A DNA stretch of 64,000 bases from positions 1 through 64,000 of the forward strand of contig BEHT01000009.1 in assembly GCA_002898575.1 (NCBI GenBank), given 5' to 3'. This stretch comes from a bacterium HR17 (lineage in GTDB: Bacteria > Armatimonadota > Fervidibacteria > Fervidibacterales > Fervidibacteraceae). Both the position numbers and the translations under genes were made by a program. Of this stretch, positions 1 to 7,119 are shown piece by piece. How positions within the stretch are numbered: the first letter of the stretch is position 1; every line of letters starts with the position of its first letter. Below the pieces are notes generated by a model. That model saw nothing but the letters and a program-made list of their open reading frames with translations. It was not told the DNA's origin and did no database searches.

Positions 1-2645
1 GCCAATTCCTGCGGTGTCCCGACGGCGACGAGGTTGCCGTTGTCCAGCACCAACACGCGGTCGGCGAGGCGACGCACTTCATCGGCGCGATGGGAGCAAA
101 GGACAATCGTTTTGCCTTGCCGCTTCAAGCGTTCCACGAACGCCCACACTTCGGAACGAGTGCGGGCGTCCAAGTTCGCGGTCGGTTCGTCCAGCAGCAA
201 AATTGGTGGATCGGACAGCAACGCTAACGCAAACGCCAGCCGTTGGCGCATACCACCCGACAAACTGCTGACAGGTTTATCGGCGATGTCGTTTAACCGC
301 CATTCGTCCATTGCTGCTGCGATGTGTTCCGCGGGCGCGCGGCGCAAGCGGGCGAAAAAGTGCAGCGTTTCGGCGACCGTCCAGTCGTTGGGCAAACGGA
401 TGTCCTGCGGCAGGTAACCGACCAAACGACGCACTGCCTTGCCGTCAAGGCGCGGGTCGTGACCCATCACGCGCACTGCACCGTCAAACGCCAACACGCC
501 TAACAGGCAACGCAACAGCGTCGTTTTGCCTGCTCCGTTCGGTCCCCACAGCGCCAGCGTTTCACCACTGGCGACGGCAAAACTGACATCATTGAGGGCG
601 ACGACACCGCCGAAGTGTTTAGTCAAATGCGCTGCGACGATAGCGTCAATGCGGGCATCGGGTTGTGTCGTGGCAATAGTTGCCAACGCTTTGTGTGGGC
701 TGAAGCGGGGCAAGTGTAGCAAAGTGGCGCAAAGGATCATGGCGATGCCCGCGGCGACCCACGCCAACGAAACGGACGGGCGACGGACACCGACGCGGGG
801 CAAGAGGGGCGCCATGCGCGGTGCATTGTCCACCAGTTGCGGTTGCGGGGCAAAGACGGGAAAACAGCGAGCGGCGAAGTCAACGGCGTGAGCGGCGAGG
901 CTGAAGGCGAAAAAGCGCGTTGCGCTTTGTCGCTCTGTCAACCGCTCAAACCACCGAAAGGCTTTGTAAGGCACATCGCCGATGCCGTCGCCGTCGGCAT
1001 CGTAGCCCCCATAGTCGCTCCAAAAGTTGCCTCGCCAACGGTTGGCTTGAGGAGACAAAACGCCTTCTATTGCCACTTGCTCCCCGTTGTCCACAAAACT
1101 GTTGGCGGTCAGCGTGTTGGTGGAGGAGGACGGAAATAGCAGGATGCCGATATCGTTGTGGGCGATGAAGTTGCGCTCAAAATGGCTGAGGGTCGCCCCT
1201 TCGGCAAAGATTCCGACACGGTTGGCAGCGATCAAATTGTCGGCGATAAGGGCACGATACATGTCCTTCAAACCGATGCCGTAGCCGCTGGGTCCGCGAT
1301 TGTGCACCAGCAAGTTGCGGCGCAGCCGTAAGTTGCGGCTATACATCAGGTAGATGCCGACGGCGTTGTCTCTCAGGCGATTGCCCTCCACAAGGGCGTC
1401 GTCGCAATACATGAAATGAATGCCATAGCGCCCTTGCGTGACCGTGTTGTGGCGGACGGTTAAAGTGCGGGAGAACCACAAGACGGCGTCGCGTCCGCCG
1501 ACGACTTTGTTGCCTTCAAGGCACACACCATCGCTATACCACACCTTGATGAGGTCGCCCCGACGAGGTAGCGGCAAGGGTTTGCCATGCAACTCGTTGT
1601 GGCGCACAACCGTTTGAGGGGCGTTGCGGAGCACGATGCCAAACAGCACATCGTCAAGGCGATTGTTTTCCACGACGCATCGTGACGCTTCAACGGCGAT
1701 GCCCGCATCTTCCGTTGACAGCGTTGAACCGCTATTGCGGATGACAAAGCCTTTCAAAGTGGTGCGTGGCGCTTTCAAGGTTATGACCGTGCCGTTGCCA
1801 CCACCATCCAGAACGGGCGAGTTTTCGCCGATGAGGGTGAGCGATTTGGTCACGACGAAGTTGCCCCGATGAACGCCACCGCTCACGACGACGGTCGCTC
1901 CGTTGGGAGCCCGCTTGAGGGCGTCGGTGAAAGTGGCGACGGTTGTCGGATGCGCAAAAGTTGGCGTGATAATGCGGATGGACGAAGGGACCGCGAAGGT
2001 TTCCTGCGCAGTCGCAGCAACGAGCGACACAACGAGGCTGACCACAAGCAATTGCACTTCGTTCCGCTGACGACGCAAGGAGTATCGCCAGCGCGTTATG
2101 ACGCTCGCAACCGCTAACAGTGCGGCGACTGTCGCCATGACGAAGCCGCCGTGGAAAGTCGCGATGGCTTGAAACTGGGCGATTTTGCCCGTGCCTATCA
2201 GGGGCGGGACGAACGGCGGGATACGCATCGGCGCTTTGGGGTCAAGGTGCGTTCCATAGCGGTGCAGCCACCAATGCAAATCCAACACGAACGTGATGGG
2301 AAACACGACAGCGGGCAAAATCAGCAACCACATGAAACGGTAGGGCGCAAAAGCGGCGAGGAGCAGCAACGCCGCACTCAACGCGATGGCGGGCATTGCC
2401 ATCGCCCGTTCTCGCTGCGCCGCTTGGGCTAACGGCTTCATGCCGATGTAGTGGTTGAGGATGTCCAACTCTCGCACATCGCCGTCCAAGCGGTGAACGA
2501 ACACTGTCAGGCGTAGTCCCTGCGGATACTGCGGGGCGATGACCCGCACCTGCCAGTAAGGCAACGCGCTGGACGCGATGAGTAACAGCGCGCTGAGCAC
2601 CAACCCGATGCGTCCCAACCGTTCGCCCGCGTTGCCCTGCACCAT
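1..2645 (-). CDS. NosB-NosD-NosF fusion protein, nitrous oxide reductase maturation (3' end beyond window)
   Basis: One uninterrupted minus-strand frame of at least 881 codons runs from ATG at 2645 off the left edge. Residues 1-190 are a membrane domain with the motif LNHYIGMKPL, like the NosB protein that follows nosZ in clade II operons. Residues 197-212 are a hydrophobic stretch resembling a former NosD signal peptide. Residues 215-560 are right-handed beta-helix repeats of NosD type, which serves copper-site assembly in the periplasm. After another membrane helix near 590 comes a NosF-type ABC ATPase: Walker A GPNGAGKTT at residues 701-709, LSGG near 793, then LLLDEPTANLD. In the known families these are separate proteins. 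The start follows GGGTGA and lies 30 nt after the nosZ stop, so the two are likely co-transcribed. The end of the ATPase and any NosY lie outside the window. Confidence 0.85.
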   Translation of the reverse strand, partial: MVQGNAGERLGRIGLVLSALLLIASSALPYWQVRVIAPQYPQGLRLTVFVHRLDGDVRELDILNHYIGMKPLAQAAQRERAMAMPAIALSAALLLLAAFAPYRFMWLLILPAVVFPITFVLDLHWWLHRYGTHLDPKAPMRIPPFVPPLIGTGKIAQFQAIATFHGGFVMATVAALLAVASVITRWRYSLRRQRNEVQLLVVSLVVSLVAATAQETFAVPSSIRIITPTFAHPTTVATFTDALKRAPNGATVVVSGGVHRGNFVVTKSLTLIGENSPVLDGGGNGTVITLKAPRTTLKGFVIRNSGSTLSTEDAGIAVEASRCVVENNRLDDVLFGIVLRNAPQTVVRHNELHGKPLPLPRRGDLIKVWYSDGVCLEGNKVVGGRDAVLWFSRTLTVRHNTVTQGRYGIHFMYCDDALVEGNRLRDNAVGIYLMYSRNLRLRRNLLVHNRGPSGYGIGLKDMYRALIADNLIAANRVGIFAEGATLSHFERNFIAHNDIGILLFPSSSTNTLTANSFVDNGEQVAIEGVLSPQANRWRGNFWSDYGGYDADGDGIGDVPYKAFRWFERLTERQSATRFFAFSLAAHAVDFAARCFPVFAPQPQLVDNAPRMAPLLPRVGVRRPSVSLAWVAAGIAMILCATLLHLPRFSPHKALATIATTQPDARIDAIVAAHLTKHFGGVVALNDVSFAVASGETLALWGPNGAGKTTLLRCLLGVLAFDGAVRVMGHDPRLDGKAVRRLVGYLPQDIRLPNDWTVAETLHFFARLRRAPAEHIAAAMDEWRLNDIADKPVSSLSGGMRQRLAFALALLSDPPILLLDEPTANLDARTRSEVWAFVERLKRQGKTIVLCSHRADEVRRLADRVLVLDNGNLVAVGTPQEL

Positions 2646-2675: not shown

Positions 2676-4727
2676 TCACGGTTCCACGAGCAAGTAGCCT
2701 GCAAACTCCAAATGCAGTGCCGAGCAAAATTCAGAGCAGTAGAAGGGGAAGACGCCGGGCGTGTCGGCGGTGAACTCCATTGTCACCGTTTCGCCAGGCT
2801 CTATGGACGCGTTGATGTTGAAGGGACCGAGAGCGAAGCCGTGGGTGGCGTCTTTAGTGCGTTCCAAGTTGGTGATGTGCAGGATGACGCGGTCGCCTCT
2901 CTTGACGCGGATATGCTCCGGCTCAAAGTGACTGCGGATGACGGTCATGAACACTTCCACTGTCCTGCCGTTGCGAACGATGCGCCCCTTCGTCGTCGCT
3001 TTGGGGTGTTTCGCTTCTGCCAGCGGGTTCCACCCGACTTCGGGATAAATCTCCCAAGCCTTGAGTTTGTCTGCCTTGATGATTTGGGCGTAATGGGGTT
3101 CACCGATGCCGATGGGCATCGTGTAAACGACGCGTCCTGATTCGCCCGTCTTGCTGATGTCAATCAGTTGGAAGGTCTGAGGCAGGAGCGGTCCGACACC
3201 GACGAAGTTGTCAATGGACCATTTGTTCAATGCCACGAGCCACTTGCCGTGCGGGTTCACCGTGTCGCCGTGAGCGGCAGCGATGTGTCCGACATTGTAG
3301 CGGACGGGGATTTTCTGGACCAGCGTCCACGGTTTTTCAGGGGCTTTGAACTTGCAATCGCCCATCGTCCATCTGGCGACGGCGCTATCCAAAAACAGGC
3401 TGGTGTAGGCATAACCCTGATTGTCCCATTGGGTGTGCAGCGGACCCAAGCCGACTTCCACTTGCGCCGCGCGCACCGCGTCAAAGCGCAAAATGGGCAC
3501 ACCGTAGGGGTCGCGCCCTTCAAAGTCCTTGCGTTTGACGGCGTCCAAAATCTTGCGCATGGAGTAAACGGTCACATGCGGGTCCAACTTTCCACCGACA
3601 ACGATGTGGTTGCCGCAGGGGCAAACATCCACGCCGTGGGGGCTCTTCGGTTCGGGCGCAAAGAAGAGGATGCCTTCATCCGCCGCGACTTTCAGCGGGA
3701 TAACCTTCAAACCGTTGACCGTGACGGCTTTGCCCGCTTTGACCAGTTGTTCGGCTTTCTTCCAATTGACGATGTGCAGGTAGTCCATATCGCGTTCAGC
3801 GGTCCCCGCTTCAAAAGGCGGGTTGCCTTCTTCAATGCCCCCTGTCGCCATTTCGGTGTTAAAGGAGTTGCAGAATGCCCAACCGTCGCTGACGCCTTTG
3901 CCGCAGTCGGCAAGGTCTTGCCAATAAGGGGGCAATTCAATGGCAAAGGATTGTTCGGGGACGATGCGCCCTTGCTTGCGGTCAAACTTCCAAAAGGTCA
4001 TCCAGCCCCGATACTCTTCCTTGTAGCGCTCAATGGGCGCGTAGCGCCCACCCAACGGCGCTGCGTATTGCGAGACTTCCACGACATATTCGGTGTTGGG
4101 CGTCACGAAGGCGGCACCGTGACTGGAGTAACCCAGTGGGTTTTTGACGATTTGCTTCGTCTCAAAGTCCCGCAGGTCAACGACGGCGAGGCGGGCGCTG
4201 GCTTTGTCACCGATGAACAGAAATTGCCCGTCATAATCGCCGTCGGTTTCGCTGAGGTTAGGGTGGTGCGTGTCACCCCACGCGATAACCTTGCCGTTCA
4301 CCTTGACCCCGTTGAAGGGATTGCGCCCGTCCAACAAACCGGCGGTGAACGCCGTCTCTTGAACGCCATAGCCGTAACCCTGCCATGGTTCTGGGGTGAA
4401 CACGCCGATAACTTTCAGCAGTCGCATGGACGGGATGCCAACGACTAACACTTGCCCACTGTGACCGCCCGACGCGAACATGACATACTCATCGTGACGA
4501 CCTGCGGGCATGTAAGTTTCCAGTGCAGCGGTGACATCCTCAGGGGTCAATTTGCGGGCACGCACCAACTCCATCGCTTCAGCGGGCACACCGACTGCAG
4601 GGCGCCGACTGGGAGGCAAGGTTGCACCTTTTGGTGCTGATTGCTGCCTACCTAACAGGTAACCGATGGCGAGGGCAAAGGCGGCAGTTGCTGCCAACGC
4701 TCCCCACCAATGCCAGTTTCGTCGCAT
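2676..4727 (-). CDS. nosZ: nitrous-oxide reductase, Sec-type (clade II-like)
   Basis: Reduces N2O to N2 in the periplasm, the last step of denitrification. The 683-residue protein starts with a plain hydrophobic export signal (residues 9-26) and no twin-arginine motif, which fits clade II NosZ. Likely CuZ histidines are visible in the DTHHP (154-155), SSHG (203), SPHG, GPLHTQ, VGH and GEPHY motifs. The C-terminal cupredoxin domain holds the CuA site: THGF (His629), Cys664, Cys668 and His672. The residue where the CuA methionine is expected, three after that histidine, is Phe675. Downstream is the NosBDF fusion; upstream are a palindrome and an Rrf2 regulator, so control by redox or nitrogen oxides is plausible. 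Confidence 0.93.
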   Translation of the reverse strand: MRRNWHWWGALAATAAFALAIGYLLGRQQSAPKGATLPPSRRPAVGVPAEAMELVRARKLTPEDVTAALETYMPAGRHDEYVMFASGGHSGQVLVVGIPSMRLLKVIGVFTPEPWQGYGYGVQETAFTAGLLDGRNPFNGVKVNGKVIAWGDTHHPNLSETDGDYDGQFLFIGDKASARLAVVDLRDFETKQIVKNPLGYSSHGAAFVTPNTEYVVEVSQYAAPLGGRYAPIERYKEEYRGWMTFWKFDRKQGRIVPEQSFAIELPPYWQDLADCGKGVSDGWAFCNSFNTEMATGGIEEGNPPFEAGTAERDMDYLHIVNWKKAEQLVKAGKAVTVNGLKVIPLKVAADEGILFFAPEPKSPHGVDVCPCGNHIVVGGKLDPHVTVYSMRKILDAVKRKDFEGRDPYGVPILRFDAVRAAQVEVGLGPLHTQWDNQGYAYTSLFLDSAVARWTMGDCKFKAPEKPWTLVQKIPVRYNVGHIAAAHGDTVNPHGKWLVALNKWSIDNFVGVGPLLPQTFQLIDISKTGESGRVVYTMPIGIGEPHYAQIIKADKLKAWEIYPEVGWNPLAEAKHPKATTKGRIVRNGRTVEVFMTVIRSHFEPEHIRVKRGDRVILHITNLERTKDATHGFALGPFNINASIEPGETVTMEFTADTPGVFPFYCSEFCSALHLEFAGYLLVEP

Positions 4728-4865: not shown

Positions 4866-5285
4866 TTAAAAGTGCGCCGTGATAGCGATGTCGGACACCC
4901 GCACTTTTTGCAGGAACTCGCGCTGGTGTGCGCGGTGAGGCACCCAAAGGTCGTGTAAAGGGCAGGGGTGAGCCTCGTTGCACTGCACCCATCCCAACAC
5001 GCAACGGTTCAACCAGGGCGCTCCCTCAACGGCTGCCACTACATCCAGCAGCGTAACGGCGTCGGGCGGACGGCGCAAACGAAATCCGCCCTTCGGACCG
5101 CGCTGCGATTGCACTAATCCCGCTTGCACCAACTTCTGCAACACCTTTGCTACCATCGGTTCGGGCAACCCGAAGGTGTCAGCGATTTCTGCGGCTTTCA
5201 GCCACCGTCGGCTCTGCCATGCCTTTGCCAACGCTATCATCGCCCACAAGGCATGTTGGCAAACGCGCGAAAACATCATGCCCAT
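4866..5285 (-). CDS. Rrf2-family transcriptional regulator
   Basis: A 139-residue winged helix-turn-helix protein of Rrf2 type (IscR/NsrR/RirA relatives). The N-terminal half carries the DNA-binding helices (LKAAEIADTFGLPEPMVAKVLQKL) followed by the wing (GPKGGFRL). The C-terminal half has three cysteines, C-x7-C-x5-C (CVLGWVQC then HPC), the usual ligands for an Fe-S cluster that senses NO, O2 or iron. It lies between nosZ and the divergent nitrite/sulfite reductase gene and has palindromes on both sides, so it probably regulates one or both. Starts at codons 1, 3 and 4 are all possible. Confidence 0.9.
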   Translation of the reverse strand: MGMMFSRVCQHALWAMIALAKAWQSRRWLKAAEIADTFGLPEPMVAKVLQKLVQAGLVQSQRGPKGGFRLRRPPDAVTLLDVVAAVEGAPWLNRCVLGWVQCNEAHPCPLHDLWVPHRAHQREFLQKVRVSDIAITAHF

Positions 5286-5381: not shown

Positions 5382-5430
5382 CAGCGCACGGGTGCTGTGA
5401 CGCCAAAATGGCAAGGCGAGGTGATTGAGC

Positions 5431-7119
5431 GTGGCGGACAGCAAGACGGCATTGCGCCCGTGCCAGGAGATTGCCCGCGCCATCGCTGAGGCGCTGGCGG
5501 CGATGGACAACCAGCCCACCGACGAGTTAGTCTTGAAGCGCAACTACATTGAGCGGCTGAAACGGGAGAAAAATCCCGAGCGCATCGTGGACGAATTGCC
5601 CCAACTGGCGAAATGCGACTACCAAGCCATTCCTGAAGATGACCTCGTGCGGTTGCATTGGTGGGGCATTTTCCACGATAAACCCAAAGTCGGCTACTTC
5701 TGCTTGCGCATCAAGTGCCCTGGTGGCATCGTGCAGCCGGCGCAATTGCGCGGCGTTGGCGAATTGGCGGTCCGCTACGGGCAAAACTATGTGGAGTTGA
5801 CGACGCGCCAAAACTTCCAACTTCATTACATTCACCTGACGCAATTGCCTGAAGTCTTTGACCGCATCCAAGCGTTGGGATTGACGACGAAAGGCGGTTG
5901 TGGTGATACTGTGCGCAACATCACGGGTTGCCCCGTCGCCGGGCTTGACCCTCACGAACTCTTTGACCCGACGCCTCTCCTCGTGGAAGCGTCGCGGTTG
6001 TTTGACGCAACGCCCGAATACAGCGATCTGCCCCGCAAGCACAAAATCACCGTCAGCGCGTGCCCGTTTTGGTGCACGGCGCCGGAAATCAACTGCGTCG
6101 CATTTGTCGGCGTGGAAAAGGACGGGCGTAAAGGATTCACCGTGTTGGTCGGAGGTGGGCTGGCATCTACACCGCGTTTGGCGAAACCGTTGGGGGTGTT
6201 CATTGAGCCGCAAGACGCTCTCCCCGTCATGGTCGCCATCTTGGAACTATGGCGCACGAACAAGCGTTACCGCGTTTCGCGGGTCAAAGCCCGCTTCAAG
6301 TTCATGGTGGACGATTACGGTCCCGAGCACATCCGCCAAATGATTGAACAAGCGTTGGGACGCAAGTTGGAAGACTACCCTACAACACCCCGCCCCATCG
6401 GCTTCACCAACCACATGGGCGTCCATGAGCAGAAGGGGCGTGGGACAAGGGACGGGGAGCGAAGGTTTTACATCGGTGTGCCCGTGTTGGTCGGGCAGAT
6501 GAAAGGCGAAGACTTGATCGTGCTGGCAGATTGGTTGGAGCGTTTCGGCGGAGAATTTCGCATCACTCGCCAGCAAAACTTTGTCCTGACCCATGTGCCC
6601 GAAAGTAAATTGGACGACACCGTCGCTTTGTTGCAGGAGTTGGGCTATTCGCCTTTCGCTTGCCCTTTGATTGCCAACGGCATCGCCTGCACAGGTGACC
6701 CCTTCTGCAATTACGCCGTGACGGACGCCAAGCACCATTTGCGGGCGCTCATTGATCATTTGCGTGCGGTTTTCGGCGATGAAATTTGGCGGCAGGTGCG
6801 GTTGACTTTGCACATGGACGGCTGCCCCCACGCTTGCGCGCAGCATTGGGTCGGCGACATCGGGTTGCAAGGGACGGCAGCGACGCTGCCGGATGGCACG
6901 AAGCATGAGGGCTTTGACATCATCGTAGGTGGCGGGTTGGGCACGATGCCCCGCATCGGGCGACAAGTCTTGCGGCGCGTCCCTGCCACTGAACTCAAAT
7001 TCGTCATTGAGCGATTGGTGCGGGCATATTTGCGGGAGCGCCACGCAGGCGAAACCTTTCAGCAATGGTGCTTGCGGGTCGGCGATGAGCATTTGAAAGC
7101 CGCTGTCGGCGACGGTTAG
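5431..7119 (+). CDS. ferredoxin-type nitrite/sulfite reductase (NirA/Sir family)
   Basis: Siroheme and [4Fe-4S] enzyme reducing nitrite to ammonium or sulfite to sulfide, likely cytoplasmic and ferredoxin-dependent. The protein is about 562 residues and shows the two-half organisation of the family: ferredoxin-like half domains (ELTTRQNFQLHYI; ITRQQNFVLTHV) alternate with the catalytic halves. The cluster cysteines are ACTGDPFC (C-x5-C) and GCPHAC (C-x3-C), followed by VGDIGLQG. GTG at 5431 is preferred because GAGGTGA lies at normal distance; the TTG at 5425 is too close to it. The neighbouring nos genes favour nitrite as substrate, but sulfite cannot be excluded. Confidence 0.85.
   Translation: MADSKTALRPCQEIARAIAEALAAMDNQPTDELVLKRNYIERLKREKNPERIVDELPQLAKCDYQAIPEDDLVRLHWWGIFHDKPKVGYFCLRIKCPGGIVQPAQLRGVGELAVRYGQNYVELTTRQNFQLHYIHLTQLPEVFDRIQALGLTTKGGCGDTVRNITGCPVAGLDPHELFDPTPLLVEASRLFDATPEYSDLPRKHKITVSACPFWCTAPEINCVAFVGVEKDGRKGFTVLVGGGLASTPRLAKPLGVFIEPQDALPVMVAILELWRTNKRYRVSRVKARFKFMVDDYGPEHIRQMIEQALGRKLEDYPTTPRPIGFTNHMGVHEQKGRGTRDGERRFYIGVPVLVGQMKGEDLIVLADWLERFGGEFRITRQQNFVLTHVPESKLDDTVALLQELGYSPFACPLIANGIACTGDPFCNYAVTDAKHHLRALIDHLRAVFGDEIWRQVRLTLHMDGCPHACAQHWVGDIGLQGTAATLPDGTKHEGFDIIVGGGLGTMPRIGRQVLRRVPATELKFVIERLVRAYLRERHAGETFQQWCLRVGDEHLKAAVGDG

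Follow-up and report, generated by a model that had tools for sequence, protein, structure and literature searches.

A nosBDF gene fusion in a clade II nitrous oxide reductase operon of the bacterium HR17

In the bacterium HR17, a member of the Armatimonadota, a single gene of a clade II nos operon encodes NosB, NosD and NosF, which are normally separate parts loading copper into nitrous oxide reductase. The fusion probably arose by stop-codon loss; NosB is probably cut off again, and the remaining NosD-NosF chains would pair with NosY, a reading to which we assign a probability of about 0.8. Clade II organisms are major sinks of nitrous oxide, a greenhouse gas. Natural fusions fix which parts of a system touch each other and in which ratio, and the present ones bear on how ATP use by NosF passes to NosD and then to the copper loading of NosZ.

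The fused gene and its operon

Within the window (the whole stretch analysed, the first 64,000 nucleotides of contig BEHT01000009.1), the fused gene occupies positions 3..2645 of the minus strand as a single stop-free frame. It runs from an ATG at 2645, 30 bases past the nosZ stop, to base 3 at the contig edge, and encodes NosB, NosD, a transmembrane helix and the NosF ATPase in that order. An earlier note, made from the sequence alone, had proposed this arrangement, which the open frame and the domain matches bear out, and had advised extending the contig toward the 3' end and nosY. Contig C33 (G000:C33) opens with the window contig's last 99 bases as an exact overlap and carries the frame on, adding 75 residues and the stop (L009:100-325) to the 881 aa encoded in the window and giving a complete protein of 956 aa. 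A nosY homologue (L009:432-1265; match to 7o0y_D at 2e-27) and nosL (L009:1299-1733; PF05573) come next on C33. The operon order is nosZ - nosBDF - nosY - nosL; the final 75 residues and the placement of nosY depend on the 99-nt contig overlap, and a relative (L010/L026) displays the same order on one contig.

All parts of the protein within the window lie on the minus strand. The NosB domain (residues 1-190; 2076..2645) comprises four transmembrane helices and a periplasmic beta-sheet. Pfam holds no model for NosB; the domain adjoins a clade II nosZ and carries at residues 63-69 an exact copy of LNHYIGM, one of the two published NosB signature stretches, while the other, YGHN, is partially matched by YGTH (PMC9697520). 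Aligned with 45 other NosB proteins, it keeps all invariant columns. The predicted structure of this domain (2076-2645, pLDDT 96) resembles the claudin/TARP fold, with four helices and an extracytoplasmic beta-sheet; among PDB entries it comes closest to TARP gamma-5 and claudin-19 (E about 1e-4, TM about 0.4-0.5).

The former NosD signal peptide follows as an internal helix (residues 197-217; 1995..2057), in which residue 213 precedes a candidate site for signal peptidase (ATA↓QE). The periplasmic NosD region (residues 240-611; 813..1928) scores 408 bits with TIGR04247 against a cut-off of 300, matches 7o0y_A at 4e-29 and adopts a beta-helix in the predicted model. Behind it, a transmembrane helix (residues about 625-643; 717..773) corresponds to the anchor at the C-terminus of unfused NosD from related lineages. 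The NosF ABC ATPase (residues 669-881; 3..641, continuing into C33) is identified by ABC_tran (E 2e-31), by its best NosF match, PDB 7o0y_B at 2.5e-40, and by the motifs read from its sequence: Walker A GPNGAGKTT, signature LSGGMRQRL, Walker B LLLDEPT and H-loop CSHR. The full-chain model (mean pLDDT 82) is confident for the NosB, NosD and NosF domains and of low confidence for the linkers 215-236 and 644-664; a fold search with the full chain returned only ABC ATPases as top matches.

Directly upstream lies nosZ (2676..4727, minus strand), whose product scores 828 bits with TIGR04246 (cut-off 625). With a Sec-dependent NosZ and a NosB, here fused, this is by its gene content a clade II nos system. 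An Rrf2 regulator (4866-5285, minus strand) adjoins nosZ, and a nitrite/sulfite reductase-type gene (5425-7116, plus strand) is divergently transcribed. Downstream of nosL, L009:2922-9147 on C33 holds a hemerythrin and three multihaem cytochromes (MtrC/NrfB-like), which are possible electron donors.

The nosBDF frame is a genuine gene fusion and not an artefact, since two Omnitrophota genomes and a second genus of the family carry the triple fusion as well. The window does lie at the edge of a draft contig from a 75-contig assembly, where an assembly or sequencing error might have joined separate genes. Both joins are, however, internal to the contig, and the triple fusion recurs in three other genomes from separate assemblies and two phyla, with a quadruple fusion found on contigs as long as 391 kb; such an error is so improbable as to be negligible, and the relatives rule out a frame error or chimaera. 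Codon usage at both joins prefers the reading frame of the fusion over the five others. The frame might still be open while separate proteins are made from internal translation starts, and in-frame GTG and TTG codons do lie close to where the old signal peptide begins. Yet the Shine-Dalgarno match reaches at most 3 bases at every candidate codon, the NosF start lacks ATG and GTG, and the NosD-NosF join shows zero gap columns between close fused NosD-NosF relatives, read in frame. The scan for internal starts gave no convincing site, and we regard separate translation as quite improbable.

Recurrence and origin of nos fusions

A search for the same domain order, also suggested in the earlier note, recovered it in three genomes. 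The first (G003; JANXBO010000034, Armatimonadetes SKYB36) belongs to another genus of the same family and encodes a complete protein of 937 aa (L010:1480-4293) that is 52% identical to the window protein across the NosB-NosD part; the other two are the Omnitrophota fusions L028 (921 aa, stop to stop) and L125 (960 aa). The departure from the usual arrangement as separate genes, described in the earlier note, thus stands for this operon but is not singular, as nos fusions are recurrent.

Among 291 Armatimonadota genomes, eight have a nos system, and some fusion is present in all eight: NosB-D-F in two, NosB-D-F-Y in three, NosD-F-Y in two (L029, L119) and NosD-F in one. The quadruple NosB-NosD-NosF-NosY frames (L115:4218-8222; L116:4239-8144; L117:4406-8308, minus strand) span 1301-1335 aa and come from three genera. 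In the Omnitrophota sample, 10/285 genomes have the system, divided into NosB-D-F (2), NosB-D with a separate NosF (5), one cut by a contig end and separate genes (2). The corresponding figure for Chloroflexota is 26 of 400, with NosD-F in 12, NosB-D in 5 and separate genes in 9, so that NosD-F is common in the sampled Chloroflexota; it is also present in Calditrichota and KSB1. In a first tree, the window protein falls into a group of Armatimonadota and Omnitrophota (support 100/96) in which all members are fused, and a larger quick tree places two unfused Omnitrophota rows inside that group. The minimum number of changes on the NosD tree is six for the B-D join, nine for the D-F join and one for the F-Y join. 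NosB-like frames of ~400-450 aa were also seen in Alphaproteobacteria (L050, L053-L055, L058-L060, L063-L065, L067) and seem to carry an insertion of ~150 aa between the two halves of NosB; one of these, L060, gave no Pfam match.

Comparison of these sequences suggests that the fusion probably arose via stop-codon loss between adjacent genes. Unfused NosD of Chloroflexota, Dadabacteria and their relatives has at its C-terminus a transmembrane helix and, after it, a short tail that is often basic; this helix also ends the Omnitrophota NosB-D form and is missing from most proteobacterial and Bacteroidota NosD. At L027, NosB-D is followed by a NosF whose frame overlaps the end of NosB-D. The stop-loss route would be easy because NosD already ended in a membrane anchor, with its tail in the cytoplasm beside NosF: loss of one stop codon with the frame kept would yield a NosD-NosF protein of the right topology.

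Fate of NosB and stoichiometry of the complex

The predicted topology agrees with that given in the earlier note, in which NosD is anchored at both ends and the ATPase lies inside. The chain would enter the membrane as NosB with its four helices, after which the old NosD signal peptide would start export of the beta-helix; the sixth helix would return the chain to the inside, where NosF would fold in the cytoplasm and pair with NosY. Signal peptidase I would probably cut after residue 213, freeing NosB as a subunit in fixed ratio and leaving a covalent NosD-NosF protein.

Although the signal segment of NosD is internal in the fused chain, a candidate signal-peptidase motif is present. Across the NosB-D fusions, a small residue-x-Ala within 12 residues after the internal hydrophobic segment was found in 16/18 (for example AYA↓AT, AIA↓KT, AWA↓KT and VYA↓AE), compared with 3/18 and 6/18 after two other outward-going NosB helices taken as controls, these being simple motif counts in alanine-rich sequences. 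In Bradyrhizobium, the cytochrome b/c1 precursor is likewise cut at an internal signal peptide. Since the motif is kept in so many fusions, NosB is probably cut off while NosD-NosF stays joined, and a lasting fusion of NosD and NosF is the most likely outcome.

Were the chain left uncut, the three domains would remain in one polypeptide, as the earlier note proposed, and the mature complex would hold NosB at 1:1 with both NosD and NosF. The helix at 198-217 in the window protein is long enough for a membrane span, and NosB evidently tolerates fusion, as NosB-NosL fusions exist elsewhere (PMC9697520; L103). Apart from the retained consensus, it speaks against an uncut chain that the internal segment of L010 has too little hydrophobicity to be scored as a membrane-spanning helix and that the linker behind the internal helix is variable and of low confidence. 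We therefore consider persistence of the full chain the less probable outcome, if a serious one, and favor release of NosB. The former signal peptide is thus an internal helix as the earlier note described, but it still looks cleavable rather than kept uncut, so that NosB may leave the chain; the idea of one polypeptide holds for NosD-NosF and probably not for NosB.

The solved Pseudomonas stutzeri NosDFY complex contains 1 NosD : 2 NosF : 2 NosY, as judged from PDB chain counts (16 NosD chains per 16 entries, 30 NosF per 15 and 34 NosY per 17). The argument that the fusion supports coupling of NosF energy to NosD overlooks this ratio. A NosD-NosF chain holds the two proteins at 1:1, and NosD-F-Y goes further, to equal numbers of all three; with fused chains, each complex should therefore carry two copies of NosD, or else lose one of them. 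The genome encodes one NosD only, and no close second NosF was found in it, which again leaves two NosD per complex or the removal of one. The nearest ATPases (C20, C1) score 187 and 179 against a NosF profile with a self-score of 570, on which unfused NosF of related lineages mostly reach 200-300, and are weak candidates for restoring 1:2:2.

Two NosD-NosF chains and two NosY would then form the ABC complex that assembles the NosZ copper site, with two NosD. We tentatively propose, as a possibility rather than an expectation, that such a symmetric, two-armed NosD2F2Y2 could serve both halves of dimeric NosZ; its extreme form would be a dimer of one ~1,300-aa NosB-D-F-Y protein. The known complex is, in contrast, asymmetric with a single NosD.

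Relation to known systems

The NosD-F-Y and NosB-D-F-Y single chains associate NosB with the ABC complex for copper assembly, a point relevant to the role of NosB, and force a NosD:NosF:NosY ratio unlike that of the only solved complex. Surveys that look for nosB, nosD and nosF as separate genes would be misled by such fusions. Our search of the open literature found no report of a NosD-NosF or NosB-NosD fusion, the only nos fusion encountered being NosB-NosL of Flavobacterium and Dyadobacter (PMC9697520). There, as here, NosB is joined to another maturation protein, but its partner is the copper chaperone NosL and the chain has no ABC ATPase, whereas in HR17 the partners are NosD and NosF.

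The operon of the Wolinella succinogenes type, in which nosB adjoins nosZ, shares with that of HR17 a Sec-type NosZ followed by the NosB, NosD, NosF, NosY and NosL functions; its genes are described as separate, while in HR17 NosB, NosD and NosF form one gene. The NosD, NosF and downstream NosY of HR17 are homologous to the chains of P. stutzeri NosDFY (PDB 7o0y and related), which consists of three separate proteins at 1:2:2; in HR17, NosD and NosF are one chain at 1:1, with NosB in front.
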